Source: Hirudinaria manillensis
Lineage: Eukaryota > Annelida > Clitellata > Hirudinida > Hirudinidae
Assembly (NCBI GenBank): GCA_034509925.1
Contig: CM067534.1
Coordinates: forward strand, 5,324,501-5,388,500
Direction: 5' to 3'
DNA: 64,000 bases
A program made the translations under genes and the position numbers. Of this stretch, positions 1-56,065 are shown piece after piece (position 1 is the stretch's first letter; the number at the start of each line of letters is the position of its first letter). The notes beneath the pieces were generated by a model. The model was not told where the DNA came from. It saw nothing but the letters and a program-made list of their open reading frames with translations, and did not search any database.

Positions 1-43
1 GAGCACGGCTAGGCTTTACCGGACAATGACACGACAACGTTAG
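1..43 (+). CDS. Tgs1: TGS1-like gene, 3' end only (copy 0)
   Basis: The window opens inside this copy. Bases 2-43 encode the last 13 residues (STARLYRTMTRQR) and the TAG stop, identical to the end of every other copy. The rest lies to the left of the window, showing that the array is not complete here. Confidence 0.93.
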   Translation, partial: STARLYRTMTRQR

Positions 44-592
44 AGCGAGATACCAGCCTTCTTCCCTTCGCCATGATTTTAGCCAGGAGAGATATTTTAC
101 GCGATGAAAATTTTTATTATTCGAGAAAGATGTTAATAAAATTTAAATATACCAAAAAAAAAACAAAAGCCTTAATTAATAACATTCTTGCGCGATAAAT
201 GGGATATTAAATTTTGTTTTAATCGAGAAACATTTTAATTTTAATCAAATTTATATATAAAAAATTAAAAAAAATAAAAACTTTTATTAATAACTTACTT
301 GAGCGATAAATGGGATATTAAATTTTTTTAAATCGAGAAACATTTTAATTTTAATCAAATTTATATATAAAAATTTTAAAAAAATAAAAACCTTTATTAA
401 CATTTTAATTTTAATCAAATTTATATATAAAAAATTTTAAAAAAATAAAAACCTTTATTAATAACTTACTTGAGCGATAAATGGGATATTAAATTTTTTA
501 AATCGAGAAACATTTTAATTTTAATCAAATTTATATATAAAAAATTAAAAAAAAAACAACCCCTTATTCTTAACTTACTCGCGCGATAAATA
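44..592 (+). repeat. Spacer 0: 3'UTR plus AT-rich subrepeats
   Basis: The conserved 3'UTR has AATAAA at 135-140, followed about 15 bp later by an A-run. Three full subrepeats carry the core GATAAATGGGATATTAAA. A fourth, near 391-450, has lost its core: the sequence jumps from CTTTATTAA straight to CATTTTAATT. The last block (CTTACTCGCGCGATAAATAGG) leads into the promoter. No coding potential. Confidence 0.9.
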
Positions 593-704
593 GGCGGGAA
601 GCTAAGCCTCGGGCTAGTAGCTAGCACGCATGCGCTGCCCGCGTGCTCGTTGCTGAGGCGCCGATACCTATAAATTAAGGAGAACGGGTAGACTACGGCA
701 TTTC
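593..704 (+). promoter_or_regulatory. Promoter block of copy 1
   Basis: A GC-rich island of about 110 bp in AT-rich surroundings. In order it holds GGCGGGAAGC, the repeated GCTAG motif (GCTAGTAGCTAGC), an inverted repeat GCACGC/GCGTGC, and the TATA box TATAAATTA at 669-677. Transcription would start about 30 bp downstream, near GGCATTTC (698-705), giving a 5'UTR of roughly 90 bp. Copy 1 differs from the others by GCATGC inside the inverted repeat and by AAATAGGC at its left end. The TATA box is seen; start-site placement is inferred from spacing. Confidence 0.72.
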
Positions 705-788
705 TTGGCCGACGAGTCTAGCGTTCACATCTCCTCCGCGCTTGATCGAGTTTACGTTTCGCGAAAACCAATCATTTGTCACGACAAT

Positions 789-2096
789 ATGTCCCATTCA
801 ATTAACGACACTTGGCAGAGACTTGCCGAATTGGACGTGAGTCGAGAAGAGTCGAGGTATCGCTGTAAAATATTGCTGACCAGGGCGAACATCGACGACT
901 CGCATCTGATGAAAAACTACCAGAGGTACTCGGACGAAATGGTTTCGAGCGACGAGGAATTCTCCGTCGGGGACAAAGATAGCATGGAAGTGGTGCACGA
1001 GATGGGTTTCAAATTCGAGTCTGAAATGGACGTCGGAGAGAAGAAAATCTCTCGTGTCGGCGTAATAATCAACTCGAGGCACGGTGCTTCGCTGCGGATG
1101 CGCATCAAGCGTAAGAAGTTTGAAGAATTTTCGAGCGAGAACAAAAAATTCTGGATCAACAGGCACAGGCTCTTCTCAAAGTTTGATAGCGGAATCAAGC
1201 TCGATCAAGAGAGTTGGTTCTCTGTCACTCCCGAGCTGTTGGCAAAGCACATCGCCTCGAGATTGAAATGCCGCACGATTATCGACGCTTTTTGCGGAGC
1301 TGGCGGAAATGCCATTCAATTCGCTATGGTCTGCGATAGAGTCATAGCAATTGACATCGACCCGAGAAAAATCAGAATGGCCAGGCACAACGCCAGGATA
1401 TACGGTGTGGAGGACAAGATTACCTTTATAAACAAAAACTTTTTCGACTTCGTCTCCGACTCGAGGTCGAGAGCGGATGTCGTTTTTCTTAGTCCCCCTT
1501 GGGGAGGTCCCTCGTACAGAAACAAGGAGACATTTAGTCTCAAGGACGTGACGCCGGACATGGATAAAATAATGGCCAAGGCGAAATCCTTATCGGACAA
1601 CATTGCCGCCTTTCTTCCTCGCAATACGGCCGTCGAAGAGCTAATGAAATTTTCCGAGAGGAGGGTTTTCGAAGTAGAGCAGAATGTTATGTGCGACCGT
1701 TTGAAAACGATCACCGTTTATTACGGAAATCTGGTCGATGCCACTTCCGATCCCATTGCCAAGAAGTTTGATTCGCCTAAACCTCCGATGCGATTCGTAG
1801 AGCCAATCGAACAATCCTGGAGGAGAGAGAGCAAAGACGAGGTGCCTCTTTGGAACGATGGGCAGAGCCTCGAAGAGAAGCTCACGTGCAAGCCTCGTGC
1901 TTACAGGAACTTTAATAGCCGAGCGACAAGATGGGAATCACCCAAAGGCAGCCTCGAAACATGGGGTTCGCCGAAAAGAAGTCAATATTTCGAAGACGCA
2001 ACACTCGAAGAAAAGTTGTCCGCTCCGGCTACGCAATTCAAAAATTTTCAATCGAGCACGGCTAGGCTTTACCGGACAATGACACGACAACGTTAG
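789..2096 (+). CDS. Tgs1: TGS1-like RNA cap methyltransferase, copy 1 (D217N)
   Basis: The 435-residue protein matches the reference copy (copy 2) except for D217N (AAC at 1437-1439). Residue 217 is the acidic position of motif III (FINKDF), which in class I methyltransferases commonly contacts the adenine of S-adenosylmethionine, so this copy may bind cofactor less well. I know of no data for this particular change. All other catalytic motifs, including SPPWGGP, are intact. The next ATG is 1994 bp away. Confidence 0.93.
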   Translation: MSHSINDTWQRLAELDVSREESRYRCKILLTRANIDDSHLMKNYQRYSDEMVSSDEEFSVGDKDSMEVVHEMGFKFESEMDVGEKKISRVGVIINSRHGASLRMRIKRKKFEEFSSENKKFWINRHRLFSKFDSGIKLDQESWFSVTPELLAKHIASRLKCRTIIDAFCGAGGNAIQFAMVCDRVIAIDIDPRKIRMARHNARIYGVEDKITFINKNFFDFVSDSRSRADVVFLSPPWGGPSYRNKETFSLKDVTPDMDKIMAKAKSLSDNIAAFLPRNTAVEELMKFSERRVFEVEQNVMCDRLKTITVYYGNLVDATSDPIAKKFDSPKPPMRFVEPIEQSWRRESKDEVPLWNDGQSLEEKLTCKPRAYRNFNSRATRWESPKGSLETWGSPKRSQYFEDATLEEKLSAPATQFKNFQSSTARLYRTMTRQR

Positions 2097-2586
2097 AGCG
2101 AGATACCAGCCTTCTTCCCTTCGCCATGATTTTAGCAAGGAGAGATATTTTACGCGATGAAAATTTTTATTATTCGAGAAAGATGTTAATAAAATTTAAA
2201 TATACCAAAAAAAAAACAAAAGCCTTAATTAATAACATTCTTGCGCGATAAATGGGATATTAAATTTTGTTTTAATCGAGAAACATTTTAATTTTAATCA
2301 AATTTATATATAAAAAATTTAAAAAAAATAAAAACCTTTATTAATAACTTACTTGAGCGATAAATGGGATATTAAATTTTTTTAAATCGAGAAACATTTT
2401 AATTTTAATCAAATTTATATATAAAAAATTAAAAAAAAATAAAAACCTTTATTAATAACTTACTTGAGCGATAAATGGGATATTAAATTTTTTTAAATCG
2501 AGAAACATTTTAATTTTAATCAAATTTATATATAAATAATTAAAAAAAAACAAGCCCTTATTCTTAACTTACTCGCGCGATAAATG
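2097..2586 (+). repeat. Spacer 1: 3'UTR plus 3 subrepeats
   Basis: AATAAA lies at 2188-2193. The first subrepeat is the gene-proximal class A (ACATTCTTGCGCGATAAATG core, then ATTTTGTTTTAATCG). The next two are class B (ACTTACTTGAGCGATAAATG core, then ATTTTTTTAAATCG). Confidence 0.9.
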
Positions 2587-2698
2587 GGCGGGAAGCTAAG
2601 CCTCGGGCTAGTAGCTAGCACGCACGTGCTGCCCGCGTGCTCGTTGCTGAGGCGCCGATACCTATAAATTAAGGAGAACGGGTAGACTACGGCATTTC
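2587..2698 (+). promoter_or_regulatory. Promoter block of copy 2
   Basis: TATAAATTA lies at 2663-2671, 120 bp before the ATG. A palindromic E-box CACGTG is present at 2623-2628 where most copies have CACGCG. Only copies 2, 3 and 6 share it. Confidence 0.72.
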
Positions 2699-2782
2699 TT
2701 GGCCGACGAGTCTAGCGTTCACATCTCCTCCGCGCTTGATCGAGTTTACGTTTCGCGAAAACCAATCATTTGTCACGACAAT

Positions 2783-4090
2783 ATGTCCCATTCAATTAAC
2801 GACACTTGGCAGAGACTTGCCGAATTGGACGTGAGTCGAGAAGAGTCGAGGTATCGCTGTAAAATATTGCTGACCAGGGCGAACATCGACGACTCGCATC
2901 TGATGAAAAACTACCAGAGGTACTCGGACGAAATGGTTTCGAGCGACGAGGAATTCTCCGTCGGGGACAAAGATAGCATGGAAGTGGTGCACGAGATGGG
3001 TTTCAAATTCGAGTCTGAAATGGACGTCGGAGAGAAGAAAATCTCTCGTGTCGGCGTAATAATCAACTCGAGGCACGGTGCTTCGCTGCGGATGCGCATC
3101 AAGCGTAAGAAGTTTGAAGAATTTTCGAGCGAGAACAAAAAATTCTGGATCAACAGGCACAGGCTCTTCTCAAAGTTTGATAGCGGAATCAAGCTCGATC
3201 AAGAGAGTTGGTTCTCTGTCACTCCCGAGCTGTTGGCAAAGCACATCGCCTCGAGATTGAAATGCCGCACGATTATCGACGCTTTTTGCGGAGCTGGCGG
3301 AAATGCCATTCAATTCGCTATGGTCTGCGATAGAGTCATAGCAATTGACATCGACCCGAGAAAAATCAGAATGGCCAGGCACAACGCCAGGATATACGGT
3401 GTGGAGGACAAGATTACCTTTATAAACAAAGACTTTTTCGACTTCGTCTCCGACTCGAGGTCGAGAGCGGATGTCGTTTTTCTTAGTCCCCCTTGGGGAG
3501 GTCCCTCGTACAGAAACAAGGAGACATTTAGTCTCAAGGACGTGACGCCGGACATGGATAAAATAATGGCCAAGGCGAAATCCTTATCGGACAACATTGC
3601 CGCCTTTCTTCCTCGCAATACGGCCGTCGAAGAGCTAATGAAATTTTCCGAGAGGAGGGTTTTCGAAGTAGAGCAGAATGTTATGTGCGACCGTTTGAAA
3701 ACGATCACCGTTTATTACGGAAATCTGGTCGATGCCACTTCCGATCCCATTGCCAAGAAGTTTGATTCGCCTAAACCTCCGATGCGATTCGTAGAGCCAA
3801 TCGAACAATCCTGGAGGAGAGAGAGCAAAGACGAGGTGCCTCTTTGGAACGATGGGCAGAGCCTCGAAGAGAAGCTCACGTGCAAGCCTCGTGCTTACAG
3901 GAACTTTAATAGCCGAGCGACAAGATGGGAATCACCCAAAGGCAGCCTCGAAACATGGGGTTCGCCGAAAAGAAGTCAATATTTCGAAGACGCAACACTC
4001 GAAGAAAAGTTGTCCGCTCCGGCTACGCAATTCAAAAATTTTCAATCGAGCACGGCTAGGCTTTACCGGACAATGACACGACAACGTTAG
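2783..4090 (+). CDS. Tgs1: TGS1-like RNA cap methyltransferase, copy 2 (reference)
   Basis: TGS1 adds two methyl groups from S-adenosylmethionine to N2 of m7G caps of snRNA, snoRNA and telomerase RNA in the nucleus. In this 435-residue protein: acidic N-terminus (about 49-72), basic RMRIKRKK (103-110, possible NLS), [19 protein letters not shown] (121-139), WFSVTP (143-148), motif [10 protein letters not shown] (166-174), AIDIDP (187-192), motif III FINKDF (213-218), catalytic SPPWGGP (235-241; its Trp stacks on m7G in the human enzyme), FLPRN (275-279), LKTITVYYG (305-313). The C-terminus has two LEEKL...NF repeats (357-381, 403-426). The ATG is chosen because it has A at -3, lies downstream of the TATA box, and copy 3 breaks the frame upstream of it. 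It is intronless and much shorter than human TGS1. Family assignment is firm; activity is inferred. Confidence 0.95.
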   Translation: MSHSINDTWQRLAELDVSREESRYRCKILLTRANIDDSHLMKNYQRYSDEMVSSDEEFSVGDKDSMEVVHEMGFKFESEMDVGEKKISRVGVIINSRHGASLRMRIKRKKFEEFSSENKKFWINRHRLFSKFDSGIKLDQESWFSVTPELLAKHIASRLKCRTIIDAFCGAGGNAIQFAMVCDRVIAIDIDPRKIRMARHNARIYGVEDKITFINKDFFDFVSDSRSRADVVFLSPPWGGPSYRNKETFSLKDVTPDMDKIMAKAKSLSDNIAAFLPRNTAVEELMKFSERRVFEVEQNVMCDRLKTITVYYGNLVDATSDPIAKKFDSPKPPMRFVEPIEQSWRRESKDEVPLWNDGQSLEEKLTCKPRAYRNFNSRATRWESPKGSLETWGSPKRSQYFEDATLEEKLSAPATQFKNFQSSTARLYRTMTRQR

Positions 4091-4689
4091 AGCGAGATAC
4101 CAGCCTTCTTCCCTTCGCCATGATTTTAGCCAAGAGAGATATTTTACGCGATGAAAATTTTTATTATTCGAGAAAGATGTTAAAAAAATTTAAATTTACC
4201 AAAAAAAAAAAAAGCCTTAATTAATAACATTCTTGCGCGATATATGGGATATTAAATTTTGTTTTAATCGAGAAACATTTTAATTTTAATCAAATTTATA
4301 TATAAAAAATTTAAAAAAAATAAAAACCTTTATTAATAACTTACTTGAGCGATAAATGGGATATTAAATTTTTTTAAATCGAGAAACATTTTAATTTTAA
4401 TCAAATTTATATATAAAAAATTAAAAAAAAATAAAAACCTTTATTAATAACTTACTTGAGCGATAAATGGGATATTAAATTTTTTTAAATCGAGAAACAT
4501 TTTAATTTTAATCAAATTTATATATAAAAAATAAAAAAAAAATAAAAACCTTTATTAATAACTTACTTGAGCGATAAATGGGATATTAAATTTTTTTAAA
4601 TCGAGAAACATTTTAATTTTAATCAAATTTATATATAAATAATTAAAAAAAAACAAGCCCTTATTCTTAACTTACTCGCGCGATAAATG
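4091..4689 (+). repeat. Spacer 2: 3'UTR (AATAAA lost) plus 4 subrepeats
   Basis: The usual AATAAA is changed to an A-run (GTTAAAAAAATTT, near 4181-4192), and the 3'UTR reads AGCCAAGAG instead of AGCCAGGAG. Both changes recur in spacer 4. The first subrepeat core reads GATATATGGG. AATAAA-like strings still occur in the A-rich subrepeats (for example AAAATAAAAACC) and could serve as backup signals. Confidence 0.88.
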
Positions 4690-4801
4690 GGCGGGAAGCT
4701 AAGCCTCGGGCTAGTAGCTAGCACGCACGTGCTGCCCGCGTGCTCGTTGCTGAGGCGCCGATACCTATAAATTAAGGAGAACGGGTAGACTACGGCATTT
4801 C
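4690..4801 (+). promoter_or_regulatory. Promoter block of copy 3
   Basis: TATAAATTA lies at 4766-4774, 119 bp before the ATG because one T is missing from the 5'UTR. The E-box CACGTG is at 4726-4731. Confidence 0.72.
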
Positions 4802-4884
4802 TTGGCCGACGAGTCTAGCGTTCACATCTCCTCCGCGCTTGATCGAGTTTACGTTTCGCGAAAACCAATCATTGTCACGACAAT

Positions 4885-6192
4885 ATGTCCCATTCAATTA
4901 ACGACACTTGGCAGAGACTTGCCCAATTGGACGTGAGTCGAGAAGAGTCGAGGTATCGCTGTAAAATATTGCTGACCAGGGCGAACATCGACGACTCGCA
5001 TCTGATGAAAAACTACCAGAGGTACTCGGACGAAATGGTTTCGAGCGACGAGGAATTCTCCGTCGGGGACAAAGATAGCATGGAAGTGGTGCACGAGATG
5101 GGTTTCAAATTCGAGTCTGAAATGGACGTCGGAGAGAAGAAAATCTCTCGTGTCGGCGTAATAATCAACTCGAGGCACGGTGCTTCGCTGCGGATGCGCA
5201 TCAAGCGTAAGAAGTTTGAAGAATTTTCGAGCGAGAACAAAAAATTCTGGATCAACAGGCACAGGCTCTTCTCAAAGTTTGATAGCGGAATCAAGCTCGA
5301 TCAAGAGAGTTGGTTCTCTGTCACTCCCGAGCTGTTGGCAAAGCACATCGCCTCGAGATTGAAATGCCGCACGATTATCGACGCTTTTTGCGGAGCTGGC
5401 GGAAATGCCATTCAATTCGCTATGGTCTGCGATAGAGTCATAGCAATTGACATCGACCCGAGAAAAATCAGAATGGCCAGGCACAACGCCAGGATATACG
5501 GTGTGGAGGACAAGATTACCTTTATAAACAAAGACTTTTTCGACTTCGTCTCCGACTCGAGGTCGAGAGCGGATGTCGTTTTTCTTAGTCCCCCTTGGGG
5601 AGGTCCCTCGTACAGAAACAAGGAGACATTTAGTCTCAAGGACGTGACGCCGGACATGGATAAAATAATGGCCAAGGCGAAATCCTTATCGGACAACATT
5701 GCCGCCTTTCTTCCTCGCAATACGGCCGTCGAAGAGCTAATGAAATTTTCCGAGAGGAGGGTTTTCGAAGTAGAGCAGAATGTTATGTGCGACCGTTTGA
5801 AAACGATCACCGTTTATTACGGAAATCTGGTCGATGCCACTTCCGATCCCATTGCCAAGAAGTTTGATTCGCCTAAACCTCCGATGCGATTCGTAGAGCC
5901 AATCGAACAATCCTGGAGGAGAGAGAGCAAAGACGAGGTGCCTCTTTGGAACGATGGGCAGAGCCTCGAAGAGAAGCTCACGTGCAAGCCTCGTGCTTAC
6001 AGGAACTTTAATAGCCGAGCGACAAGATGGGAATCACCCAAAGGCAGCCTCGAAACATGGGGTTCGCCGAAAAGAAGTCAATATTTCGAAGACGCAACAC
6101 TCGAAGAAAAGTTGTCCGCTCCGGCTACGCAATTCAAAAATTTTCAATCGAGCACGGCTAGGCTTTACCGGACAATGACACGACAACGTTAG
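4885..6192 (+). CDS. Tgs1: TGS1-like RNA cap methyltransferase, copy 3 (E14Q)
   Basis: 435 residues, identical to copy 2 except E14Q (CAA at 4924-4926), in the poorly conserved N-terminus, so likely neutral. One T is deleted just upstream (ATCATTGTC instead of ATCATTTGTC), which closes the in-frame extension seen upstream of the ATG in other copies. This indel is tolerated only if translation starts at this ATG, supporting the start chosen for the whole array. Confidence 0.94.
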   Translation: MSHSINDTWQRLAQLDVSREESRYRCKILLTRANIDDSHLMKNYQRYSDEMVSSDEEFSVGDKDSMEVVHEMGFKFESEMDVGEKKISRVGVIINSRHGASLRMRIKRKKFEEFSSENKKFWINRHRLFSKFDSGIKLDQESWFSVTPELLAKHIASRLKCRTIIDAFCGAGGNAIQFAMVCDRVIAIDIDPRKIRMARHNARIYGVEDKITFINKDFFDFVSDSRSRADVVFLSPPWGGPSYRNKETFSLKDVTPDMDKIMAKAKSLSDNIAAFLPRNTAVEELMKFSERRVFEVEQNVMCDRLKTITVYYGNLVDATSDPIAKKFDSPKPPMRFVEPIEQSWRRESKDEVPLWNDGQSLEEKLTCKPRAYRNFNSRATRWESPKGSLETWGSPKRSQYFEDATLEEKLSAPATQFKNFQSSTARLYRTMTRQR

Positions 6193-6877: not shown

Positions 6878-8185
6878 ATGTCCCATTCAATTAACGACAC
6901 TTGGCAGAGACTTGCCGAATTGGACGTGAGTCGAGAAGAGTCGAGGTATCGCTGTAAAATATTGCTGACCAGGGCGAACATCGACGACTCGCATCTGATG
7001 AAAAACTACCAGAGGTACTCGGACGAAATGGTTTCGAGCGACGAGGAATTCTCCGTCGGGGACAAAGATAGCATGGAAGTGGTGCACGAGATGGGTTTCA
7101 AATTCGAGTCTGAAATGGACGTCGGAGAGAAGAAAATCTCTCGTGTCGGCGTAATAATCAACTCGAGGCACGGTGCTTCGCTGCGGATGCGCATCAAGCG
7201 TAAGAAGTTTGAAGAATTTTCGAGCGAGAACAAAAAATTCTGGATCAACAGGCACAGGCTCTTCTCAAAGTTTGATAGCGGAATCAAGCTCGATCAAGAG
7301 AGTTGGTTCTCTGTCACTCCCGAGCTGTTGGCAAAGCACATCGCCTCGAGATTGAAATGCCGCACGATTATCGACGCTTTTTGCGGAGCTGGCGGAAATG
7401 CCATTCAATTCGCTATGGTCTGCGATAGAGTCATAGCAATTGACATCGACCCGAGAAAAATCAGAATGGCCAGGCACAACGCCAGGATATACGGTGTGGA
7501 GGACAAGATTACCTTTATAAACAAAGACTTTTTCGACTTCGTCTCCGACTCGAGGTCGAGAGCGGATGTCGTTTTTCTTAGTCCCCCTTGGGGAGGTCCC
7601 TCGTACAGAAACAAGGAGACATTTAGTCTCAAGGACGTGACGCCGGACATGGATAAAATAATGGCCAAGGCGAAATCCTTATCGGACAACATTGCCGCCT
7701 TTCTTCCTCGCAATACGGCCGTCGAAGAGCTAATGAAATTTTCCGAGAGGAGGGTTTTCGAAGTAGAGCAGAATGTTATGTGCGACCGTTTGAAAACGAT
7801 CACCGTTTATTACGGAAATCTGGTCGATGCCACTTCCGATCCCATTGCCAAGAAGTTTGATTCGCCTAAACCTCCGATGCGATTCGTAGAGCCAATCGAA
7901 CAATCCTGGAGGAGAGAGAGCAAAGACGAGGTGCCTCTTTGGAACGATGGGCAGAGCCTCGAAGAGAAGCTCACGTGCAAGCCTCGTGCTTACAGGAACT
8001 TTAATAGCCGAGCGACAAGATGGGAATCACCCAAAGGCAGCCTCGAAACATGGGGTTCGCCGAAAAGAAGTCAATATTTCGAAGACGCAACACTCGAAGA
8101 AAAGTTGTCCGCTCCGGCTACGCAATTCAAAAATTTTCAATCGAGCACGGCTAGGCTTTACCGGACAATGACACGACAACGTTAG
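6878..8185 (+). CDS. Tgs1: TGS1-like RNA cap methyltransferase, copy 4
   Basis: Same 435-residue protein as copy 2, with no amino-acid difference. The next ATG is 1991 bp away. Confidence 0.94.
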   Translation: MSHSINDTWQRLAELDVSREESRYRCKILLTRANIDDSHLMKNYQRYSDEMVSSDEEFSVGDKDSMEVVHEMGFKFESEMDVGEKKISRVGVIINSRHGASLRMRIKRKKFEEFSSENKKFWINRHRLFSKFDSGIKLDQESWFSVTPELLAKHIASRLKCRTIIDAFCGAGGNAIQFAMVCDRVIAIDIDPRKIRMARHNARIYGVEDKITFINKDFFDFVSDSRSRADVVFLSPPWGGPSYRNKETFSLKDVTPDMDKIMAKAKSLSDNIAAFLPRNTAVEELMKFSERRVFEVEQNVMCDRLKTITVYYGNLVDATSDPIAKKFDSPKPPMRFVEPIEQSWRRESKDEVPLWNDGQSLEEKLTCKPRAYRNFNSRATRWESPKGSLETWGSPKRSQYFEDATLEEKLSAPATQFKNFQSSTARLYRTMTRQR

Positions 8186-8868: not shown

Positions 8869-10176
8869 ATGTCCCATTCAATTAACGACACTTGGCAGAG
8901 ACTTGCCGAATTGGACGTGAGTCGAGAAGAGTCGAGGTATCGCTGTAAAATATTGCTGACCAGGGCGAACATCGACGACTCGCATCTGATGAAAAACTAC
9001 CAGAGGTACTCGGACGAAATGGTTTCGAGCGACGAGGAATTCTCCGTCGGGGACAAAGATAGCATGGAAGTGGTGCACGAGATGGGTTTCAAATTCGAGT
9101 CTGAAATGGACGTCGGAGAGAAGAAAATCTCTCGTGTCGGCGTAATAATCAACTCGAGGCACGGTGCTTCGCTGCGGATGCGCATCAAGCGTAAGAAGTT
9201 TGAAGAATTTTCGAGCGAGAACAAAAAATTCTGGATCAACAGGCACAGGCTCTTCTCAAAGTTTGATAGCGGAATCAAGCTCGATCAAGAGAGTTGGTTC
9301 TCTGTCACTCCCGAGCTGTTGGCAAAGCACATCGCCTCGAGATTGAAATGCCGCACGATTATCGACGCTTTTTGCGGAGCTGGCGGAAATGCCATTCAAT
9401 TCGCTATGGTCTGCGATAGAGTCATAGCAATTGACATCGACCCGAGAAAAATCAGAATGGCCAGGCACAACGCCAGGATATACGGTGTGGAGGACAAGAT
9501 TACCTTTATAAACAAAGACTTTTTCGACTTCGTCTCCGACTCGAGGTCGAGAGCGGATGTCGTTTTTCTTAGTCCCCCTTGGGGAGGTCCCTCGTACAGA
9601 AACAAGGAGACATTTAGTCTCAAGGACGTGACGCCGGACATGGATAAAATAATGGCCAAGGCGAAATCCTTATCGGACAACATTGCCGCCTTTCTTCCTC
9701 GCAATACGGCCGTCGAAGAGCTAATGAAATTTTCCGAGAGGAGGGTTTTCGAAGTAGAGCAGAATGTTATGTGCGACCGTTTGAAAACGATCACCGTTTA
9801 TTACGGAAATCTGGTCGATGCCACTTCCGATCCCATTGCCAAGAAGTTTGATTCGCCTAAACCTCCGATGCGATTCGTAGAGCCAATCGAACAATCCTGG
9901 AGGAGAGAGAGCAAAGACGAGGTGCCTCTTTGGAACGATGGGCAGAGCCTCGAAGAGAAGCTCACGTGCAAGCCTCGTGCTTACAGGAACTTTAATAGCC
10001 GAGCGACAAGATGGGAATCACCCAAAGGCAGCCTCGAAACATGGGGTTCGCCGAAAAGAAGTCAATATTTCGAAGACGCAACACTCGAAGAAAAGTTGTC
10101 CGCTCCGGCTACGCAATTCAAAAATTTTCAATCGAGCACGGCTAGGCTTTACCGGACAATGACACGACAACGTTAG
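8869..10176 (+). CDS. Tgs1: TGS1-like RNA cap methyltransferase, copy 5
   Basis: Same 435-residue protein as copy 2. The next ATG is 2105 bp away, a four-subrepeat unit. Confidence 0.94.
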   Translation: MSHSINDTWQRLAELDVSREESRYRCKILLTRANIDDSHLMKNYQRYSDEMVSSDEEFSVGDKDSMEVVHEMGFKFESEMDVGEKKISRVGVIINSRHGASLRMRIKRKKFEEFSSENKKFWINRHRLFSKFDSGIKLDQESWFSVTPELLAKHIASRLKCRTIIDAFCGAGGNAIQFAMVCDRVIAIDIDPRKIRMARHNARIYGVEDKITFINKDFFDFVSDSRSRADVVFLSPPWGGPSYRNKETFSLKDVTPDMDKIMAKAKSLSDNIAAFLPRNTAVEELMKFSERRVFEVEQNVMCDRLKTITVYYGNLVDATSDPIAKKFDSPKPPMRFVEPIEQSWRRESKDEVPLWNDGQSLEEKLTCKPRAYRNFNSRATRWESPKGSLETWGSPKRSQYFEDATLEEKLSAPATQFKNFQSSTARLYRTMTRQR

Positions 10177-28466: not shown

Positions 28467-28578
28467 GGCGGGAAGCTAAGCCTCGGGCTAGTAGCTAGCA
28501 CGCACGCGCTGCCCGCGTGCTCGTTGCTGAGGCGCCGATACCTATAAATTAAGGAGAACGGGTAGACTACGGCATTTC
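28467..28578 (+). promoter_or_regulatory. Promoter block of copy 14
   Basis: TATAAATTA lies at 28543-28551. Common CACGCG form. Confidence 0.72.
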
Positions 28579-30675: not shown

Positions 30676-32178
<1,503 letters not shown>

Positions 32179-45225: not shown

Positions 45226-46533
45226 ATGTCCCATTCAATTAACGACACTTGGCAGAGACTTGCCGAATTGGACGTGAGTCGAGAAGAGTCGAGGTATCGC
45301 TGTAAAATATTGCTGACCAGGGCGAACATCGACGACTCGCATCTGATGAAAAACTACCAGAGGTACTCGGACGAAATGGTTTCGAGCGACGAGGAATTCT
45401 CCGTCGGGGACAAAGATAGCATGGAAGTGGTGCACGAGATGGGTTTCAAATTCGAGTCTGAAATGGACGTCGGAGAGAAGAAAATCTCTCGTGTCGGCGT
45501 AATAATTAACTCGAGGCACGGTGCTTCGCTGCGGATGCGCATCAAGCGTAAGAAGTTTGAAGAATTTTCGAGCGAGAACAAAAAATTCTGGATCAACAGG
45601 CACAGGCTCTTCTCAAAGTTTGATAGCGGAATCAAGCTCGATCAAGAGAGTTGGTTCTCTGTCACTCCCGAGCTGTTGGCAAAGCACATCGCCTCGAGAT
45701 TGAAATGCCGCACGATTATCGACGCTTTTTGCGGAGCTGGCGGAAATGCCATTCAATTCGCTATGGTCTGCGATAGAGTCATAGCAATTGACATCGACCC
45801 GAGAAAAATCAGAATGGCCAGGCACAACGCCAGGATATACGGTGTGGAGGACAAGATTACCTTTATAAACAAAGACTTTTTCGACTTCGTCTCCGACTCG
45901 AGGTCGAGAGCGGATGTCGTTTTTCTTAGTCCCCCTTGGGGAGGTCCCTCGTACAGAAACAAGGAGACATTTAGTCTCAAGGACGTGACGCCGGACATGG
46001 ATAAAATAATGGCCAAGGCGAAATCCTTATCGGACAACATTGCCGCCTTTCTTCCTCGCAATACGGCCGTCGAAGAGCTAATGAAATTTTCCGAGAGGAG
46101 GGTTTTCGAAGTAGAGCAGAATGTTATGTGCGACCGTTTGAAAACGATCACCGTTTATTACGGAAATCTGGTCGATGCCACTTCCGATCCCATTGCCAAG
46201 AAGTTTGATTCGCCTAAACCTCCGATGCGATTCGTAGAGCCAATCGAACAATCCTGGAGGAGAGAGAGCAAAGACGAGGTGCCTCTTTGGAACGATGGGC
46301 AGAGCCTCGAAGAGAAGCTCACGTGCAAGCCTCGTGCTTACAGGAACTTTAATAGCCGAGCGACAAGATGGGAATCACCCAAAGGCAGCCTCGAAACATG
46401 GGGTTCGCCGAAAAGAAGTCAATATTTCGAAGACGCAACACTCGAAGAAAAGTTGTCCGCTCCGGCTACGCAATTCAAAAATTTTCAATCGAGCACGGCT
46501 AGGCTTTACCGGACAATGACACGACAACGTTAG
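45226..46533 (+). CDS. Tgs1: TGS1-like RNA cap methyltransferase, copy 22
   Basis: Same 435-residue protein as copy 2. Carries the silent I94 ATT marker (45507) shared with copies 20 and 26. Confidence 0.94.
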   Translation: MSHSINDTWQRLAELDVSREESRYRCKILLTRANIDDSHLMKNYQRYSDEMVSSDEEFSVGDKDSMEVVHEMGFKFESEMDVGEKKISRVGVIINSRHGASLRMRIKRKKFEEFSSENKKFWINRHRLFSKFDSGIKLDQESWFSVTPELLAKHIASRLKCRTIIDAFCGAGGNAIQFAMVCDRVIAIDIDPRKIRMARHNARIYGVEDKITFINKDFFDFVSDSRSRADVVFLSPPWGGPSYRNKETFSLKDVTPDMDKIMAKAKSLSDNIAAFLPRNTAVEELMKFSERRVFEVEQNVMCDRLKTITVYYGNLVDATSDPIAKKFDSPKPPMRFVEPIEQSWRRESKDEVPLWNDGQSLEEKLTCKPRAYRNFNSRATRWESPKGSLETWGSPKRSQYFEDATLEEKLSAPATQFKNFQSSTARLYRTMTRQR

Positions 46534-47107: not shown

Positions 47108-48415
47108 ATGTCCCATTCAATTAACGACACTTGGCAGAGACTTGCCGAATTGGACGTGAGTCGAGAAGAGTCGAGGTATCGCTGTAAAATATTGCTGACC
47201 AGGGCGAACATCGACGACTCGCATCTGATGAAAAACTACCAGAGGTACTCGGACGAAATGGTTTCGAGCGACGAGGAATTCTCCGTCGGGGACAAAGATA
47301 GCATGGAAGTGGTGCACGAGATGGGTTTCAAATTCGAGTCTGAAATGGACGTCGGAGAGAAGAAAATCTCTCGTGTCGGCGTAATAATCAACTCGAGGCA
47401 CGGTGCTTCGCTGCGGATGCGCATCAAGCGTAAGAAGTTTGAAGAATTTTCGAGCGAGAACAAAAAATTCTGGATCAACAGGCACAGGCTCTTCTCAAAG
47501 TTTGATAGCGGAATCAAGCTCGATCAAGAGAGTTGGTTCTCTGTCACTCCCGAGCTGTTGGCAAAGCACATCGCCTCGAGATTGAAATGCCGCACGATTA
47601 TCGACGCTTTTTGCGGAGCTGGCGGAAATGCCATTCAATTCGCTATGGTCTGCGATAGAGTCATAGCAATTGACATCGACCCGAGAAAAATCAGAATGGC
47701 CAGGCACAACGCCAGGATATACGGTGTGGAGGACAAGATTACCTTTATAAACAAAGACTTTTTCGACTTCGTCTCCGACTCGAGGTCGAGAGCGGATGTC
47801 GTTTTTCTTAGTCCCCCTTGGGGAGGTCCCTCGTACAGAAACAAGGAGACATTTAGTCTCAAGGACGTGACGCCGGACATGGATAAAATAATGGCCAAGG
47901 CGAAATCCTTATCGGACAACATTGCCGCCTTTCTTCCTCGCAATACGGCCGTCGAAGAGCTAATGAAATTTTCCGAGAGGAGGGTTTTCGAAGTAGAGCA
48001 GAATGTTATGTGCGACCGTTTGAAAACGATCACCGTTTATTACGGAAATCTGGTCGATGCCACTTCCGATCCCATTGCCAAGAAGTTTGATTCGCCTAAA
48101 CCTCCGATGCGATTCGTAGAGCCAATCGAACAATCCTGGAGGAGAGAGAGCAAAGACGAGGTGCCTCTTTGGAACGATGGGCAGAGCCTCGAAGAGAAGC
48201 TCACGTGCAAGCCTCGTGCTTACAGGAACTTTAATAGCCGAGCGACAAGATGGGAATCACCCAAAGGCAGCCTCGAAACATGGGGTTCGCCGAAAAGAAG
48301 TCAATATTTCGAAGACGCAACACTCGAAGAAAAGTTGTCCGCTCCGGCTACGCAATTCAAAAATTTTCAATCGAGCACGGCTAGGCTTTACCGGACAATG
48401 ACACGACAACGTTAG
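47108..48415 (+). CDS. Tgs1: TGS1-like RNA cap methyltransferase, copy 23
   Basis: Same 435-residue protein as copy 2. The next ATG is 1884 bp away. Confidence 0.94.
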   Translation: MSHSINDTWQRLAELDVSREESRYRCKILLTRANIDDSHLMKNYQRYSDEMVSSDEEFSVGDKDSMEVVHEMGFKFESEMDVGEKKISRVGVIINSRHGASLRMRIKRKKFEEFSSENKKFWINRHRLFSKFDSGIKLDQESWFSVTPELLAKHIASRLKCRTIIDAFCGAGGNAIQFAMVCDRVIAIDIDPRKIRMARHNARIYGVEDKITFINKDFFDFVSDSRSRADVVFLSPPWGGPSYRNKETFSLKDVTPDMDKIMAKAKSLSDNIAAFLPRNTAVEELMKFSERRVFEVEQNVMCDRLKTITVYYGNLVDATSDPIAKKFDSPKPPMRFVEPIEQSWRRESKDEVPLWNDGQSLEEKLTCKPRAYRNFNSRATRWESPKGSLETWGSPKRSQYFEDATLEEKLSAPATQFKNFQSSTARLYRTMTRQR

Positions 48416-48991: not shown

Positions 48992-50299
48992 ATGTCCCAT
49001 TCAATTAACGACACTTGGCAGAGACTTGCCGAATTGGACGTGAGTCGAGAAGAGTCGAGGTATCGCTGTAAAATATTGCTGACCAGGGCGAACATCGACG
49101 ACTCGCATCTGATGAAAAACTACCAGAGGTACTCGGACGAAATGGTTTCGAGCGACGAGGAATTCTCCGTCGGGGACAAAGATAGCATGGAAGTGGTGCA
49201 CGAGATGGGTTTCAAATTCGAGTCTGAAATGGACGTCGGAGAGAAGAAAATCTCTCGTGTCGGCGTAATAATCAACTCGAGGCACGGTGCTTCGCTGCGG
49301 ATGCGCATCAAGCGTAAGAAGTTTGAAGAATTTTCGAGCGAGAACAAAAAATTCTGGATCAACAGGCACAGGCTCTTCTCAAAGTTTGATAGCGGAATCA
49401 AGCTCGATCAAGAGAGTTGGTTCTCTGTCACTCCCGAGCTGTTGGCAAAGCACATCGCCTCGAGATTGAAATGCCGCACGATTATCGACGCTTTTTGCGG
49501 AGCTGGCGGAAATGCCATTCAATTCGCTATGGTCTGCGATAGAGTCATAGCAATTGACATCGACCCGAGAAAAATCAGAATGGCCAGGCACAACGCCAGG
49601 ATATACGGTGTGGAGGACAAGATTACCTTTATAAACAAAGACTTTTTCGACTTCGTCTCCGACTCGAGGTCGAGAGCGGATGTCGTTTTTCTTAGTCCCC
49701 CTTGGGGAGGTCCCTCGTACAGAAACAAGGAGACATTTAGTCTCAAGGACGTGACGCCGGACATGGATAAAATAATGGCCAAGGCGAAATCCTTATCGGA
49801 CAACATTGCCGCCTTTCTTCCTCGCAATACGGCCGTCGAAGAGCTAATGAAATTTTCCGAGAGGAGGGTTTTCGAAGTAGAGCAGAATGTTATGTGCGAC
49901 CGTTTGAAAACGATCACCGTTTATTACGGAAATCTGGTCGATGCCACTTCCGATCCCATTGCCAAGAAGTTTGATTCGCCTAAACCTCCGATGCGATTCG
50001 TAGAGCCAATCGAACAATCCTGGAGGAGAGAGAGCAAAGACGAGGTGCCTCTTTGGAACGATGGGCAGAGCCTCGAAGAGAAGCTCACGTGCAAGCCTCG
50101 TGCTTACAGGAACTTTAATAGCCGAGCGACAAGATGGGAATCACCCAAAGGCAGCCTCGAAACATGGGGTTCGCCGAAAAGAAGTCAATATTTCGAAGAC
50201 GCAACACTCGAAGAAAAGTTGTCCGCTCCGGCTACGCAATTCAAAAATTTTCAATCGAGCACGGCTAGGCTTTACCGGACAATGACACGACAACGTTAG
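48992..50299 (+). CDS. Tgs1: TGS1-like RNA cap methyltransferase, copy 24
   Basis: Same 435-residue protein as copy 2. The next ATG is 1884 bp away. Confidence 0.94.
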   Translation: MSHSINDTWQRLAELDVSREESRYRCKILLTRANIDDSHLMKNYQRYSDEMVSSDEEFSVGDKDSMEVVHEMGFKFESEMDVGEKKISRVGVIINSRHGASLRMRIKRKKFEEFSSENKKFWINRHRLFSKFDSGIKLDQESWFSVTPELLAKHIASRLKCRTIIDAFCGAGGNAIQFAMVCDRVIAIDIDPRKIRMARHNARIYGVEDKITFINKDFFDFVSDSRSRADVVFLSPPWGGPSYRNKETFSLKDVTPDMDKIMAKAKSLSDNIAAFLPRNTAVEELMKFSERRVFEVEQNVMCDRLKTITVYYGNLVDATSDPIAKKFDSPKPPMRFVEPIEQSWRRESKDEVPLWNDGQSLEEKLTCKPRAYRNFNSRATRWESPKGSLETWGSPKRSQYFEDATLEEKLSAPATQFKNFQSSTARLYRTMTRQR

Positions 50300-50875: not shown

Positions 50876-52183
50876 ATGTCCCATTCAATTAACGACACTT
50901 GGCAGAGACTTGCCGAATTGGACGTGAGTCGAGAAGAGTCGAGGTATCGCTGTAAAATATTGCTGACCAGGGCGAACATCGACGACTCGCATCTGATGAA
51001 AAACTACCAGAGGTACTCGGACGAAATGGTTTCGAGCGACGAGGAATTCTCCGTCGGGGACAAAGATAGCATGGAAGTGGTGCACGAGATGGGTTTCAAA
51101 TTCGAGTCTGAAATGGACGTCGGAGAGAAGAAAATCTCTCGTGTCGGCGTAATAATCAACTCGAGGCACGGTGCTTCGCTGCGGATGCGCATCAAGCGTA
51201 AGAAGTTTGAAGAATTTTCGAGCGAGAACAAAAAATTCTGGATCAACAGGCACAGGCTCTTCTCAAAGTTTGATAGCGGAATCAAGCTCGATCAAGAGAG
51301 TTGGTTCTCTGTCACTCCCGAGCTGTTGGCAAAGCACATCGCCTCGAGATTGAAATGCCGCACGATTATCGACGCTTTTTGCGGAGCTGGCGGAAATGCC
51401 ATTCAATTCGCTATGGTCTGCGATAGAGTCATAGCAATTGACATCGACCCGAGAAAAATCAGAATGGCCAGGCACAACGCCAGGATATACGGTGTGGAGG
51501 ACAAGATTACCTTTATAAACAAAGACTTTTTCGACTTCGTCTCCGACTCGAGGTCGAGAGCGGATGTCGTTTTTCTTAGTCCCCCTTGGGGAGGTCCCTC
51601 GTACAGAAACAAGGAGACATTTAGTCTCAAGGACGTGACGCCGGACATGGATAAAATAATGGCCAAGGCGAAATCCTTATCGGACAACATTGCCGCCTTT
51701 CTTCCTCGCAATACGGCCGTCGAAGAGCTAATGAAATTTTCCGAGAGGAGGGTTTTCGAAGTAGAGCAGAATGTTATGTGCGACCGTTTGAAAACGATCA
51801 CCGTTTATTACGGAAATCTGGTCGATGCCACTTCCGATCCCATTGCCAAGAAGTTTGATTCGCCTAAACCTCCGATGCGATTCGTAGAGCCAATCGAACA
51901 ATCCTGGAGGAGAGAGAGCAAAGACGAGGTGCCTCTTTGGAACGATGGGCAGAGCCTCGAAGAGAAGCTCACGTGCAAGCCTCGTGCTTACAGGAACTTT
52001 AATAGCCGAGCGACAAGATGGGAATCACCCAAAGGCAGCCTCGAAACATGGGGTTCGCCGAAAAGAAGTCAATATTTCGAAGACGCAACACTCGAAGAAA
52101 AGTTGTCCGCTCCGGCTACGCAATTCAAAAATTTTCAATCGAGCACGGCTAGGCTTTACCGGACAATGACACGACAACGTTAG
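50876..52183 (+). CDS. Tgs1: TGS1-like RNA cap methyltransferase, copy 25
   Basis: Same 435-residue protein as copy 2. The next ATG is 1883 bp away. Confidence 0.94.
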   Translation: MSHSINDTWQRLAELDVSREESRYRCKILLTRANIDDSHLMKNYQRYSDEMVSSDEEFSVGDKDSMEVVHEMGFKFESEMDVGEKKISRVGVIINSRHGASLRMRIKRKKFEEFSSENKKFWINRHRLFSKFDSGIKLDQESWFSVTPELLAKHIASRLKCRTIIDAFCGAGGNAIQFAMVCDRVIAIDIDPRKIRMARHNARIYGVEDKITFINKDFFDFVSDSRSRADVVFLSPPWGGPSYRNKETFSLKDVTPDMDKIMAKAKSLSDNIAAFLPRNTAVEELMKFSERRVFEVEQNVMCDRLKTITVYYGNLVDATSDPIAKKFDSPKPPMRFVEPIEQSWRRESKDEVPLWNDGQSLEEKLTCKPRAYRNFNSRATRWESPKGSLETWGSPKRSQYFEDATLEEKLSAPATQFKNFQSSTARLYRTMTRQR

Positions 52184-52674: not shown

Positions 52675-52758
52675 TTGGCCGACGAGTCTAGCGTTCACAT
52701 CTCCTCCGCGCTTGATCGAGTTTACGTTTCGCGAAAACCAATCATTTGTCACGACAAT

Positions 52759-54066
52759 ATGTCCCATTCAATTAACGACACTTGGCAGAGACTTGCCGAA
52801 TTGGACGTGAGTCGAGAAGAGTCGAGGTATCGCTGTAAAATATTGCTGACCAGGGCGAACATCGACGACTCGCATCTGATGAAAAACTACCAGAGGTACT
52901 CGGACGAAATGGTTTCGAGCGACGAGGAATTCTCCGTCGGGGACAAAGATAGCATGGAAGTGGTGCACGAGATGGGTTTCAAATTCGAGTCTGAAATGGA
53001 CGTCGGAGAGAAGAAAATCTCTCGTGTCGGCGTAATAATTAACTCGAGGCACGGTGCTTCGCTGCGGATGCGCATCAAGCGTAAGAAGTTTGAAGAATTT
53101 TCGAGCGAGAACAAAAAATTCTGGATCAACAGGCACAGGCTCTTCTCAAAGTTTGATAGCGGAATCAAGCTCGATCAAGAGAGTTGGTTCTCTGTCACTC
53201 CCGAGCTGTTGGCAAAGCACATCGCCTCGAGATTGAAATGCCGCACGATTATCGACGCTTTTTGCGGAGCTGGCGGAAATGCCATTCAATTCGCTATGGT
53301 CTGCGATAGAGTCATAGCAATTGACATCGACCCGAGAAAAATCAGAATGGCCAGGCACAACGCCAGGATATACGGTGTGGAGGACAAGATTACCTTTATA
53401 AACAAAGACTTTTTCGACTTCGTCTCCGACTCGAGGTCGAGAGCGGATGTCGTTTTTCTTAGTCCCCCTTGGGGAGGTCCCTCGTACAGAAACAAGGAGA
53501 CATTTAGTCTCAAGGACGTGACGCCGGACATGGATAAAATAATGGCCAAGGCGAAATCCTTATCGGACAACATTGCCGCCTTTCTTCCTCGCAATACGGC
53601 CGTCGAAGAGCTAATGAAATTTTCCGAGAGGAGGGTTTTCGAAGTAGAGCAGAATGTTATGTGCGACCGTTTGAAAACGATCACCGTTTATTACGGAAAT
53701 CTGGTCGATGCCACTTCCGATCCCATTGCCAAGAAGTTTGATTCGCCTAAACCTCCGATGCGATTCGTAGAGCCAATCGAACAATCCTGGAGGAGAGAGA
53801 GCAAAGACGAGGTGCCTCTTTGGAACGATGGGCAGAGCCTCGAAGAGAAGCTCACGTGCAAGCCTCGTGCTTACAGGAACTTTAATAGCCGAGCGACAAG
53901 ATGGGAATCACCCAAAGGCAGCCTCGAAACATGGGGTTCGCCGAAAAGAAGTCAATATTTCGAAGACGCAACACTCGAAGAAAAGTTGTCCGCTCCGGCT
54001 ACGCAATTCAAAAATTTTCAATCGAGCACGGCTAGGCTTTACCGGACAATGACACGACAACGTTAG
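52759..54066 (+). CDS. Tgs1: TGS1-like RNA cap methyltransferase, copy 26
   Basis: Same 435-residue protein as copy 2. Silent I94 ATT marker at 53040, as in copies 20 and 22. Confidence 0.94.
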   Translation: MSHSINDTWQRLAELDVSREESRYRCKILLTRANIDDSHLMKNYQRYSDEMVSSDEEFSVGDKDSMEVVHEMGFKFESEMDVGEKKISRVGVIINSRHGASLRMRIKRKKFEEFSSENKKFWINRHRLFSKFDSGIKLDQESWFSVTPELLAKHIASRLKCRTIIDAFCGAGGNAIQFAMVCDRVIAIDIDPRKIRMARHNARIYGVEDKITFINKDFFDFVSDSRSRADVVFLSPPWGGPSYRNKETFSLKDVTPDMDKIMAKAKSLSDNIAAFLPRNTAVEELMKFSERRVFEVEQNVMCDRLKTITVYYGNLVDATSDPIAKKFDSPKPPMRFVEPIEQSWRRESKDEVPLWNDGQSLEEKLTCKPRAYRNFNSRATRWESPKGSLETWGSPKRSQYFEDATLEEKLSAPATQFKNFQSSTARLYRTMTRQR

Positions 54067-54445
54067 AGCGAGATACCAGCCTTCTTCCCTTCGCCATGAT
54101 TTTAGCCAGGAGAGATATTTTACGCGATGAAAATTTTTATTATTCGAGAAAGATGTTAATAAAATTTAAATATACCAAAAAAAAACAAAAGCCTTAATTA
54201 ATAACATTCTTGCGCGATAAATGGGATATTAAATTTTGTTTTAATCGAGAAACATTTTAATTTTAATCAAATTTATATATAAAAAATTAATAAAATTAAA
54301 TTCTTGTATTAATAACTTATTTGAGCGATAAATGGGATATTAAATTTTTTTAAATCGAGAAACATTTTAATTTTAATAAAATTTATATATAAAAAAATAA
54401 AAAAAAAAACAAGCCCTTATTCTTAACTTACTCGCGCGATAAATG
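54067..54445 (+). repeat. Spacer 26: 3'UTR plus 2 subrepeats, diverged
   Basis: AATAAA lies at 54158-54163. Next to the array edge the spacer is more diverged: AATAAAATTAAATTCTTGTA replaces the usual A-rich linker, and TTTTAATAAAATTT replaces TTTTAATCAAATTT. Confidence 0.9.
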
Positions 54446-54557
54446 GGCGGGAAGCTAAGCCTCGGGCTAGTAGCTAGCACGCACGCGCTGCCCGCGTGCT
54501 CGTTGCTGAGGCGCCGATACCTATAAATTAAGGAGAACGGGTAGACTACGGCATTTC
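54446..54557 (+). promoter_or_regulatory. Promoter block of copy 27
   Basis: TATAAATTA lies at 54522-54530. Common CACGCG form. Confidence 0.72.
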
Positions 54558-54641
54558 TTGGCCGACGAGTCTAGCGTTCACATCTCCTCCGCGCTTGATC
54601 GAGTTTACGTTTCGCGAAAACCAATCATTTGTCACGACAAT

Positions 54642-55949
54642 ATGTCCCATTCAATTAACGACACTTGGCAGAGACTTGCCGAATTGGACGTGAGTCGAGA
54701 AGAGTCGAGGTATCGCTGTAAAATATTGCTGACCAGGGCGAACATCGACGACTCGCATCTGATGAAAAACTACCAGAGGTACTCGGACGAAATGGTTTCG
54801 AGCGACGAGGAATTCTCCGTCGGGGACAAAGATAGCATGGAAGTGGTGCACGAGATGGGTTTCAAATTCGAGTCTGAAATGGACGTCGGAGAGAAGAAAA
54901 TCTCTCGTGTCGGCGTAATAATCAACTCGAGGCACGGTGCTTCGCTGCGGATGCGCATCAAGCGTAAGAAGTTTGAAGAATTTTCGAGCGAGAACAAAAA
55001 ATTCTGGATCAACAGGCACAGGCTCTTCTCAAAGTTTGATAGCGGAATCAAGCTCGATCAAGAGAGTTGGTTCTCTGTCACTCCCGAGCTGTTGGCAAAG
55101 CACATCGCCTCGAGATTGAAATGCCGCACGATTATCGACGCTTTTTGCGGAGCTGGCGGAAATGCCATTCAATTCGCTATGGTCTGCGATAGAGTCATAG
55201 CAATTGACATCGACCCGAGAAAAATCAGAATGGCCAGGCACAACGCCAGGATATACGGTGTGGAGGACAAGATTACCTTTATAAACAAAGACTTTTTCGA
55301 CTTCGTCTCCGACTCGAGGTCGAGAGCGGATGTCGTTTTTCTTAGTCCCCCTTGGGGAGGTCCCTCGTACAGAAACAAGGAGACATTTAGTCTCAAGGAC
55401 GTGACGCCGGACATGGATAAAATAATGGCCAAGGCGAAATCCTTATCGGACAACATTGCCGCCTTTCTTCCTCGCAATACGGCCGTCGAAGAGCTAATGA
55501 AATTTTCCGAGAGGAGGGTTTTCGAAGTAGAGCAGAATGTTATGTGCGACCGTTTGAAAACGATCACCGTTTATTACGGAAATCTGGTCGATGCCACTTC
55601 CGATCCCATTGCCAAGAAGTTTGATTCGCCTAAACCTCCGATGCGATTCGTAGAGCCAATCGAACAATCCTGGAGGAGAGAGAGCAAAGACGAGGTGCCT
55701 CTTTGGAACGATGGGCAGAGCCTCGAAGAGAAGCTCACGTGCAAGCCTCGTGCTTACAGGAACTTTAATAGCCGAGCGACAAGATGGGAATCACCCAAAG
55801 GCAGCCTCGAAACATGGGGTTCGCCGAAAAGAAGTCAATATTTCGAAGACGCAACACTCGAAGAAAAGTTGTCCGCTCCGGCTACGCAATTCAAAAATTT
55901 TCAATCGAGCACGGCTAGGCTTTACCGGACAATGACACGACAACGTTAG
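54642..55949 (+). CDS. Tgs1: TGS1-like RNA cap methyltransferase, copy 27 (last)
   Basis: Last copy of the array, still the same 435-residue protein as copy 2. Divergence at the array edge affects only noncoding DNA. Confidence 0.94.
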   Translation: MSHSINDTWQRLAELDVSREESRYRCKILLTRANIDDSHLMKNYQRYSDEMVSSDEEFSVGDKDSMEVVHEMGFKFESEMDVGEKKISRVGVIINSRHGASLRMRIKRKKFEEFSSENKKFWINRHRLFSKFDSGIKLDQESWFSVTPELLAKHIASRLKCRTIIDAFCGAGGNAIQFAMVCDRVIAIDIDPRKIRMARHNARIYGVEDKITFINKDFFDFVSDSRSRADVVFLSPPWGGPSYRNKETFSLKDVTPDMDKIMAKAKSLSDNIAAFLPRNTAVEELMKFSERRVFEVEQNVMCDRLKTITVYYGNLVDATSDPIAKKFDSPKPPMRFVEPIEQSWRRESKDEVPLWNDGQSLEEKLTCKPRAYRNFNSRATRWESPKGSLETWGSPKRSQYFEDATLEEKLSAPATQFKNFQSSTARLYRTMTRQR

Positions 55950-56064
55950 AGCGAGATACCAGCCTTCTTCCCTTCGCCATGATTTTAGCCAGGAGAGATA
56001 TTTTACGCGATGAAAATTTTTATTATTCGAGAAAGATGTTAATAAAATTTAAATATACCAAAAA
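55950..56064 (+). other. 3'UTR of copy 27, right boundary of the array
   Basis: The conserved 3'UTR runs to AATAAA (56041-56046) and about 13 bp further to a short A-run (56060-56064), then array sequence stops. No subrepeats follow. In other units this A-run is 7-14 long and leads into the first subrepeat. Confidence 0.9.
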
Positions 56065-56065
56065 G

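Follow-up and report, generated by a model that had tools for sequence, protein, structure and literature searches.

An array of TGS1-like cap methyltransferase genes in the leech Hirudinaria manillensis and possible reasons for its amplification

Why should a gene for an RNA-cap methyltransferase be laid out like a ribosomal gene, in a long row of near-identical tandem units, when homogeneous arrays of this kind usually serve massive RNA or histone output? The question is raised by a stretch of 64,000 nucleotides from the leech Hirudinaria manillensis (GenBank assembly GCA_034509925.1, contig CM067534.1, positions 5,324,501 to 5,388,500; this whole stretch is here called the window and its contig C9), most of which is occupied by genes related to TGS1, the trimethylguanosine synthase. 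The answer that we put forward, tentatively and at close to even chances, is that a TGS1 paralog, probably derived by retroposition, has been amplified for dosage, perhaps for oogenesis, in a leech in which three classes of RNA that receive the trimethylguanosine cap are themselves arrayed. The open-access literature that was searched held nothing on a leech genome together with trimethylguanosine synthase, and among the open-access papers listed for leech and TGS1, or for trimethylguanosine synthase and tandem, no title dealt with such an array.

The array and the anatomy of its units

The array consists of 29 head-to-tail units, all on the forward strand, and spans C9:5321240-5380449 (59,210 bp from the first to the last coding sequence), as established by aligning one copy to the window and the DNA on either side. 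The window holds 27 complete copies and the final 43 bp of copy 2, which, complete like copy 1, begins upstream and ends at window position 43; unique DNA borders the array on either side. The units are 1.9-3.1 kb long and can be told apart by their spacers. Of the 28 units compared, 24 differ at 3-44 positions from the nearest unit of like size and units 9, 16 and 18 differ at 119-147 positions, while unit 15 has no unit of similar length with which to be compared. The nearest relative of a unit is often not its neighbour, so that the relationships within the array form a mosaic.

Because the 93.4 kb examined around the array contain no N, no exact repeat in them exceeds 1,849 bp and the units are distinguishable, simple assembly stutter does not account for the array, which we regard as confirmed. 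The suspicion that one or a few true copies were inflated during assembly is natural where units of 1.9-3.1 kb are nearly identical, and polishing by NextPolish with Illumina short reads, described in the assembly paper (PMC10671345), could have increased their likeness. The same paper gives PacBio HiFi reads of mean length 18.73 kb, assembled with NextDenovo, and this length far exceeds the longest exact repeat; together with the gap-free sequence, the spacers that mark individual units and the unique DNA at both edges, it makes such an artefact very improbable.

The full reading frame is kept in 26 of the 29 copies. Twenty-two encode one identical protein of 435 residues, four encode proteins with one or two residue changes and three are frameshifted; at the DNA level the coding sequence is identical in 19/29. 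Copies 17 and 19 together carry three single-base insertions or deletions, of which two fall in homopolymer runs; these changes could stem from errors of sequencing. Copy 21 has 4 bases missing. Substitutions segregate at 5/1,308 coding sites and at 0/122 positions between the TATA element and the ATG, as against 8/93 positions upstream and 8/110 downstream (Fisher p versus the coding sequence 2.7e-7 and 9.5e-7, respectively), so that variation is lower in the gene body than on either side of it. This pattern is naturally read as gene conversion, and a uniform gene body together with mosaic relationships among units is what bears on whether exchange is ongoing. A real alternative is that short-read polishing was unable to place reads within a near-identical block of 1.5 kb; the polishing step, as reported in PMC10671345, could have added uniformity, and may exaggerate the likeness of the copies.

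Each unit also carries its own signals for expression. The TATA element CTATAAATTAAGG precedes all 29 start codons, lying 120-123 bp before the ATG behind the 28 spacers, and AATAAA is found within 110 bp after the stop codon in 26/29 copies. Each of the 28 spacers is built of 2-13 subrepeats of about 111 bp (101 anchors). Diverged versions of a promoter-proximal element around AACTTACTCGCGCGATAAATGGG are found in the subrepeats and at one place beyond the last copy, an arrangement also seen in ribosomal spacers. First-position subrepeats are 98.9% alike across spacers, compared with 86.8% when set against last-position subrepeats (28 of each), so it was the whole unit that spread and not the subrepeat. 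A structural-RNA gene inside the units was considered and rejected, as the window contains no Rfam match at gathering score and no tRNA.

In its head-to-tail order, near-identical units, individual promoters and subrepeat spacers the locus has the features of an rDNA-like array. With rRNA, 5S and histone arrays it shares homogeneous head-to-tail units, spacer subrepeats with a promoter-proximal element and a body more uniform than the flanks; it differs from them in being protein-coding, with a polyadenylation signal and a TATA element, in numbering only 29 units and in encoding a cap enzyme. A first-pass annotation, made from the letters of the window alone, had described a homogeneous tandem array of at least 28 TGS1-like genes, each with its own TATA promoter and separated by spacers of about 111-bp subrepeats, with an identical protein in 20 of the 27 complete copies. 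Alignment and the domain match given below bear out this description, the other complete copies in the window being 4/27 that differ by one or two residues and 3/27 that are frameshifted. The comparison with rDNA that it drew stands for the architecture; its view that a housekeeping gene had been amplified is taken up below.

The amplified gene and its TGS1 relatives

The array protein matches the Methyltransf_15 domain (PF09445) with 149 bits against a curated cut-off of 22, and contains all of the motifs DAFCGxGGN, AIDIDP and SPPWGGP, which we take to be those for S-adenosylmethionine (SAM) and the m7G cap. Its eight departures from conserved columns all lie outside these motifs, as judged over 45 rows of aligned relatives with P0013 kept and P0001, P0002 and P0005 left out. 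The predicted fold is that of the TGS1 catalytic domain, lying within 1.0-1.2 A of human 3gdh. The methyltransferase core is 91% identical to that of a relative and the tails 58-70%; of 48 relatives aligned (those listed being the best 120 of 1,908 matches), P0001, P0002 and P0013 are the only ones to which the N-terminal 125 residues can be matched, P0001 with 192 bits in a local phmmer comparison. P0001 represents four sequences and one contig of 20,578 bp, which may point to tandem copies there. The protein therefore has in common with TGS1 the core, the SAM and SPPWGGP motifs and the predicted fold, and the gene differs in its intron-less coding sequence, its 29 copies and the distinct N-terminal 125 residues; cap methyltransferase activity is what these features predict.

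Across the genome 34 genes match PF09445, namely the 29 of the array, one on contig C3 and a pair on each of C2 and C5; they make up 35 rows, in which all 29 copies are matched, 28 as a whole and the frameshifted copy 17 in two pieces. The C3 gene is a single TGS1 of several exons, with four introns within the methyltransferase part. An unrooted tree of 37 sequences and 206 columns places it with the canonical TGS1 of other animals, and the array gene, the C2 and C5 genes, P0001, P0002 and P0013 are split off by a branch of length 0.51 with a support of 100; the array gene and P0001 are grouped in the same tree with a support of only 54. Domain, sequence and fold are all clearly homologous to those of TGS1, which speaks for the first-pass annotation's idea that the housekeeping TGS1 itself was amplified. 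However, the search that it had proposed for a separate single-copy, intron-containing TGS1 elsewhere leads to the C3 gene, and because that gene is separate and the branch between the two groups has full support, the array gene is not the housekeeping TGS1; we give the idea hardly any credence. The array gene is neither single copy nor intron-containing nor grouped with canonical TGS1, and it is the C3 gene that fills the housekeeping place, the amplified gene being an intron-less paralog on a long branch.

How did such a paralog arise? The array, C2 and C5 genes have uninterrupted reading frames, which fits a retroposed ancestor, but no insertion marks were found. On these features the array gene is probably an intron-less TGS1 paralog of retroposed origin. 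The two C2 genes are 98.6% alike in DNA (dN 0.010, dS 0.035), and dN/dS between the array gene and C2 is saturated. The C5 pair (L035:4386-5456 and 6947-8146) has lost SPPWGGP and shows a mutual dN/dS of 0.6-0.8 by two methods; its members are perhaps non-enzymatic paralogs.

Some further observations concern these relatives. The divergent C5 pair is interleaved, at L035:3726-8695, with five genes for vault RNA that exceed the gathering score of RF00006. By eye, all four C2 and C5 genes (L033, L034, L035) carry a TATTCAGAATCTTTTT-like motif about 100 bp before the ATG, and this motif is absent from the array promoter. A short, decayed relative of the C-terminal part of the array gene lies at C9:3235479-3235715 (L036; 67% over 75 residues), and P0003 (Daphnia pulicaria) and P0004 (labelled Arabidopsis halleri) apparently have two TGS1-type domains per chain.

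Arrayed cap-recipient RNAs, a second array and the reasons for amplification

The trimethylguanosine cap is found on U1, U2 and U3 and not on U6 or signal recognition particle (SRP) RNA. Gene counts for these five families are lower bounds, the best candidates having been scored. U2 forms a tandem array at C2:12504767-12582929 that holds all 46 scored genes, each at 173.1 bits. Homogeneous arrays are likewise formed by U1 at C8:561564-588551 (21 of 42 scored genes, the others being scattered variants) and by U3 at C11:5440837-5490020 (20 of 50, with 30 scattered). U6 gives three matches (47 candidates scored), SRP RNA three (26 scored) and the protein SMN one.

On the reading that we tentatively favour, retroposition would have made an intron-less TGS1 paralog with an intact cap-binding methyltransferase core, tandem duplication would have multiplied it into 29 units, and unequal exchange and gene conversion would have homogenised these. 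With its own TATA promoter in each unit and a polyadenylation signal in nearly all, a set of many identical short genes for RNA polymerase II (Pol II) could deliver a large burst of cap hypermethylase, timed to a stage of heavy U1, U2 and U3 RNA production, most plausibly oogenesis or the early embryo. Some large-egged animals use tandem arrays of small nuclear RNA (snRNA) genes, and oocyte or maternal-type snRNA and 5S arrays occur in frogs, sea urchins and fish. The leech resembles these systems in its large tandem U1 and U2 arrays, adds U3 to them, and differs in that an enzyme gene is arrayed too. What is shown here is genome structure, with the array and its anatomy, the intron-containing TGS1 apart from it, the conserved core and the tandem U1, U2 and U3 arrays; the retroposition, the way in which the copies were homogenised, the activity, expression and tissue of the enzyme and any causal tie between its array and those of the RNAs are inferred. 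If the reading is correct, an RNA-maturation pathway would have been enlarged in gene number, from its substrates to its enzyme, and cap hypermethylation capacity would become testable as a limiting step in the supply of small nuclear ribonucleoproteins.

Several points weigh against this account. The comparison of small RNAs covers five families, and as U1, U2 and U3 are Pol II genes and U6 and SRP RNA are Pol III genes, the contrast between them tracks the polymerase too, and so supports the link without proving it. Tandem U1/U2 arrays exist in animals in which, to our knowledge, no TGS1 array is known, and in the stretches compared, taken from a single unit of each of the U1, U2 and U3 arrays, nothing similar to the array promoter was detectable. 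Frameshifts are present in 3/29 copies, and the five segregating coding sites comprise four nonsynonymous and one synonymous, where the corresponding ratio of sites is 3.85 to 1. Purifying selection on the protein has left no sign among the copies and is thus not the source of their likeness; uniformity therefore reflects recent homogenisation (or assembly polishing) and not visible selection at the protein level.

The promoter leads to a second array. Genome-wide, a pattern for the promoter core yields 29 matches in forward and 226 in reverse orientation, and a control pattern none. The 29 forward matches are thus not due to chance, and on the distribution of the matches a dispersed mobile element was rejected. 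All listed reverse matches lie on C8, from position 2519783 to an upper end near C8:2652106, some 132 kb; since every listed match is there, a further 21 were read in L038/L054 and 132 kb at the mean unit of those 21 (about 580 bp) gives about 228 units, we infer that all 226 belong to C8. In 16 kb of this array (C8:2640001-2656000; L038/L054) there are 21 promoter copies, and behind each of them come 2-7 copies of an 89-bp repeat, for which 145 matches are listed, all on C8 (40 of 226 candidates scored). AATAAA is present in 20/20 complete units examined, and 2/205 promoter positions segregate among the 21 copies. What the C8 and C9 units have in common is the promoter and 5' untranslated region, in sense and 84% identical. 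A decayed, frameshifted relative of the array gene adjoins the C8 array (69% over 55 residues, 167/201 nucleotides identical), and as the promoters of C8 and C9 have diverged (33/205) about as far as this dead coding fragment (34/201), there is no sign of selection on the C8 promoter.

Several identities for the 89-bp repeat were tried and rejected. It is not demonstrably derived from, or antisense to, the array coding sequence (no match in either sense above chance, as set by shuffles), and neither L054 nor L067 has an Rfam match at gathering score; at E up to 5, L038 yields one row inside the repeats, a CRISPR repeat model with 24.7 bits (cut-off 35, E 1.8). Coding is not apparent, the longest ATG-initiated open reading frame after the putative start site being 19-47 aa in six units, nor is the predicted fold unusually stable (z -1.2 and -0.3). 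On the opposite strand of L067, the repeats are traversed by open reading frames as long as 87 aa.

On the simplest view, the C8 array arose as a satellite through expansion of a dead sister unit, and it is here that the main rival to amplification for dosage finds its support. On that account the C9 array would be a neutral or selfish expansion of a functional, retro-derived gene, driven by unequal crossing-over in a recombination-prone, subrepeat-rich region, the extra copies being tolerated with no benefit of dosage. C8 shows the same kind of unit amplifying further as a satellite with its coding sequence dead, a dead unit still adjoins its 226 promoter-bearing units, and their promoter shows no conservation beyond that of the dead fragment. 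Spacers that vary by whole subrepeats, nearest relatives that are often non-adjacent and the four-to-one ratio of nonsynonymous to synonymous segregating sites fit it equally. We nevertheless hold neutral expansion to be unlikely, though to be taken seriously, as the C9 array has kept its full frame in 26/29 copies, its TATA element in all and AATAAA in 26/29, and its amplification coincides with arrays of the three RNA classes that receive the cap.

A functional link between the C8 array and the methyltransferase array is possible, and two forms of it may be put forward. In the first, which we think quite unlikely, a private promoter would run a two-part module of 29 cap methyltransferase genes and 226 genes for non-coding 89-bp-repeat RNAs, the latter serving as dedicated substrate or decoy, with U1, U2 and U3 arrayed as well. 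The second, slightly less likely still, is a conflict between a coding array and a non-coding array of 226 units, by decoy or in the manner of Stellate and Suppressor of Stellate, which are Drosophila arrays, for example by titrating a transcription factor or through germ-line silencing that RNA would mediate. A promoter confined to these two arrays, the retention of AATAAA in C8 units and the near-uniformity of their promoter would agree with conflict. In the leech, as with Stellate and its suppressor, a homogeneous array of genes for a short protein has a counterpart on another chromosome, in a related non-coding array of greater size. However, the C8 array is not complementary to the coding array; it shares the promoter and 5' untranslated region in sense, and no coding sequence save one dead fragment at its edge, the 89-bp repeat matches that sequence in neither orientation above chance, and the C8 promoter shows no sign of being more conserved than dead sequence. 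With the shared promoter, the C8 array is a natural case in which to test whether satellites that carry a promoter control related coding genes.

Flanking genes and coordinates of the features

Table 1. Features of the array and its right edge in the window (positions in window coordinates; remarks on copies refer to the coding sequence, CDS)
Feature	Position	Strand	Remark
Array portion in window	1..56060	+	first to last CDS = window -3260 to 55949
Copy 2, CDS end	1..43	+	start upstream of window
Copy 3	789..2096	+	intact, D217N
Copy 4	2783..4090	+	intact, majority protein; reference copy
Copy 5	4885..6192	+	intact, E14Q
Copy 6	6878..8185	+	intact, majority protein
Copy 7	8869..10176	+	intact, majority protein
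Copy 8	10974..12281	+	intact, majority protein
Copy 9	12857..14164	+	intact, majority protein
Copy 10	15232..16539	+	intact, M66I
Copy 11	17334..18641	+	intact, majority protein
Copy 12	19440..20747	+	intact, majority protein
Copy 13	21546..22853	+	intact, majority protein
Copy 14	23651..24958	+	intact, majority protein
Copy 15	25537..26844	+	intact, majority protein
Copy 16	28663..29970	+	intact, S18I and M66I
Copy 17	30872..32178	+	frameshifted, 1-base deletion in T run
Copy 18	32873..34180	+	intact, majority protein
Copy 19	35338..36647	+	frameshifted, two single-base insertions
Copy 20	37444..38751	+	intact, majority protein
Copy 21	39441..40744	+	frameshifted, 4-base deletion near start
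Copy 22	41322..42629	+	intact, majority protein
Copy 23	43345..44652	+	intact, majority protein
Copy 24	45226..46533	+	intact, majority protein
Copy 25	47108..48415	+	intact, majority protein
Copy 26	48992..50299	+	intact, majority protein
Copy 27	50876..52183	+	intact, majority protein
Copy 28	52759..54066	+	intact, majority protein
Copy 29 (last)	54642..55949	+	intact, majority protein
Example promoter and 5' untranslated region, 215 bp	2568..2782	+	TATA about 121 bp before ATG; promoter-proximal element GATAAATGGGCGGGAA
Example 110 bp after stop (copy 4)	4091..4200	+	one of 3 copies without AATAAA
Example subrepeat spacer (about 111-bp subrepeats)	4201..4691	+	
Longest spacer	26955..28468	+	13 subrepeats
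Array right edge	56061..56120	+	diverged copy of promoter-proximal element, then unique DNA

An open reading frame (L032:4261-4737) which we take to resemble a piece of a non-LTR (long terminal repeat) retrotransposon lies some 1.5 kb upstream of copy 1. On the other side the array is flanked by a zinc-finger gene of at least three exons (window 61041-63710), whose best species-named relative, the only one so named among 35 matches, belongs to the leech Helobdella robusta and shares 69% identity.

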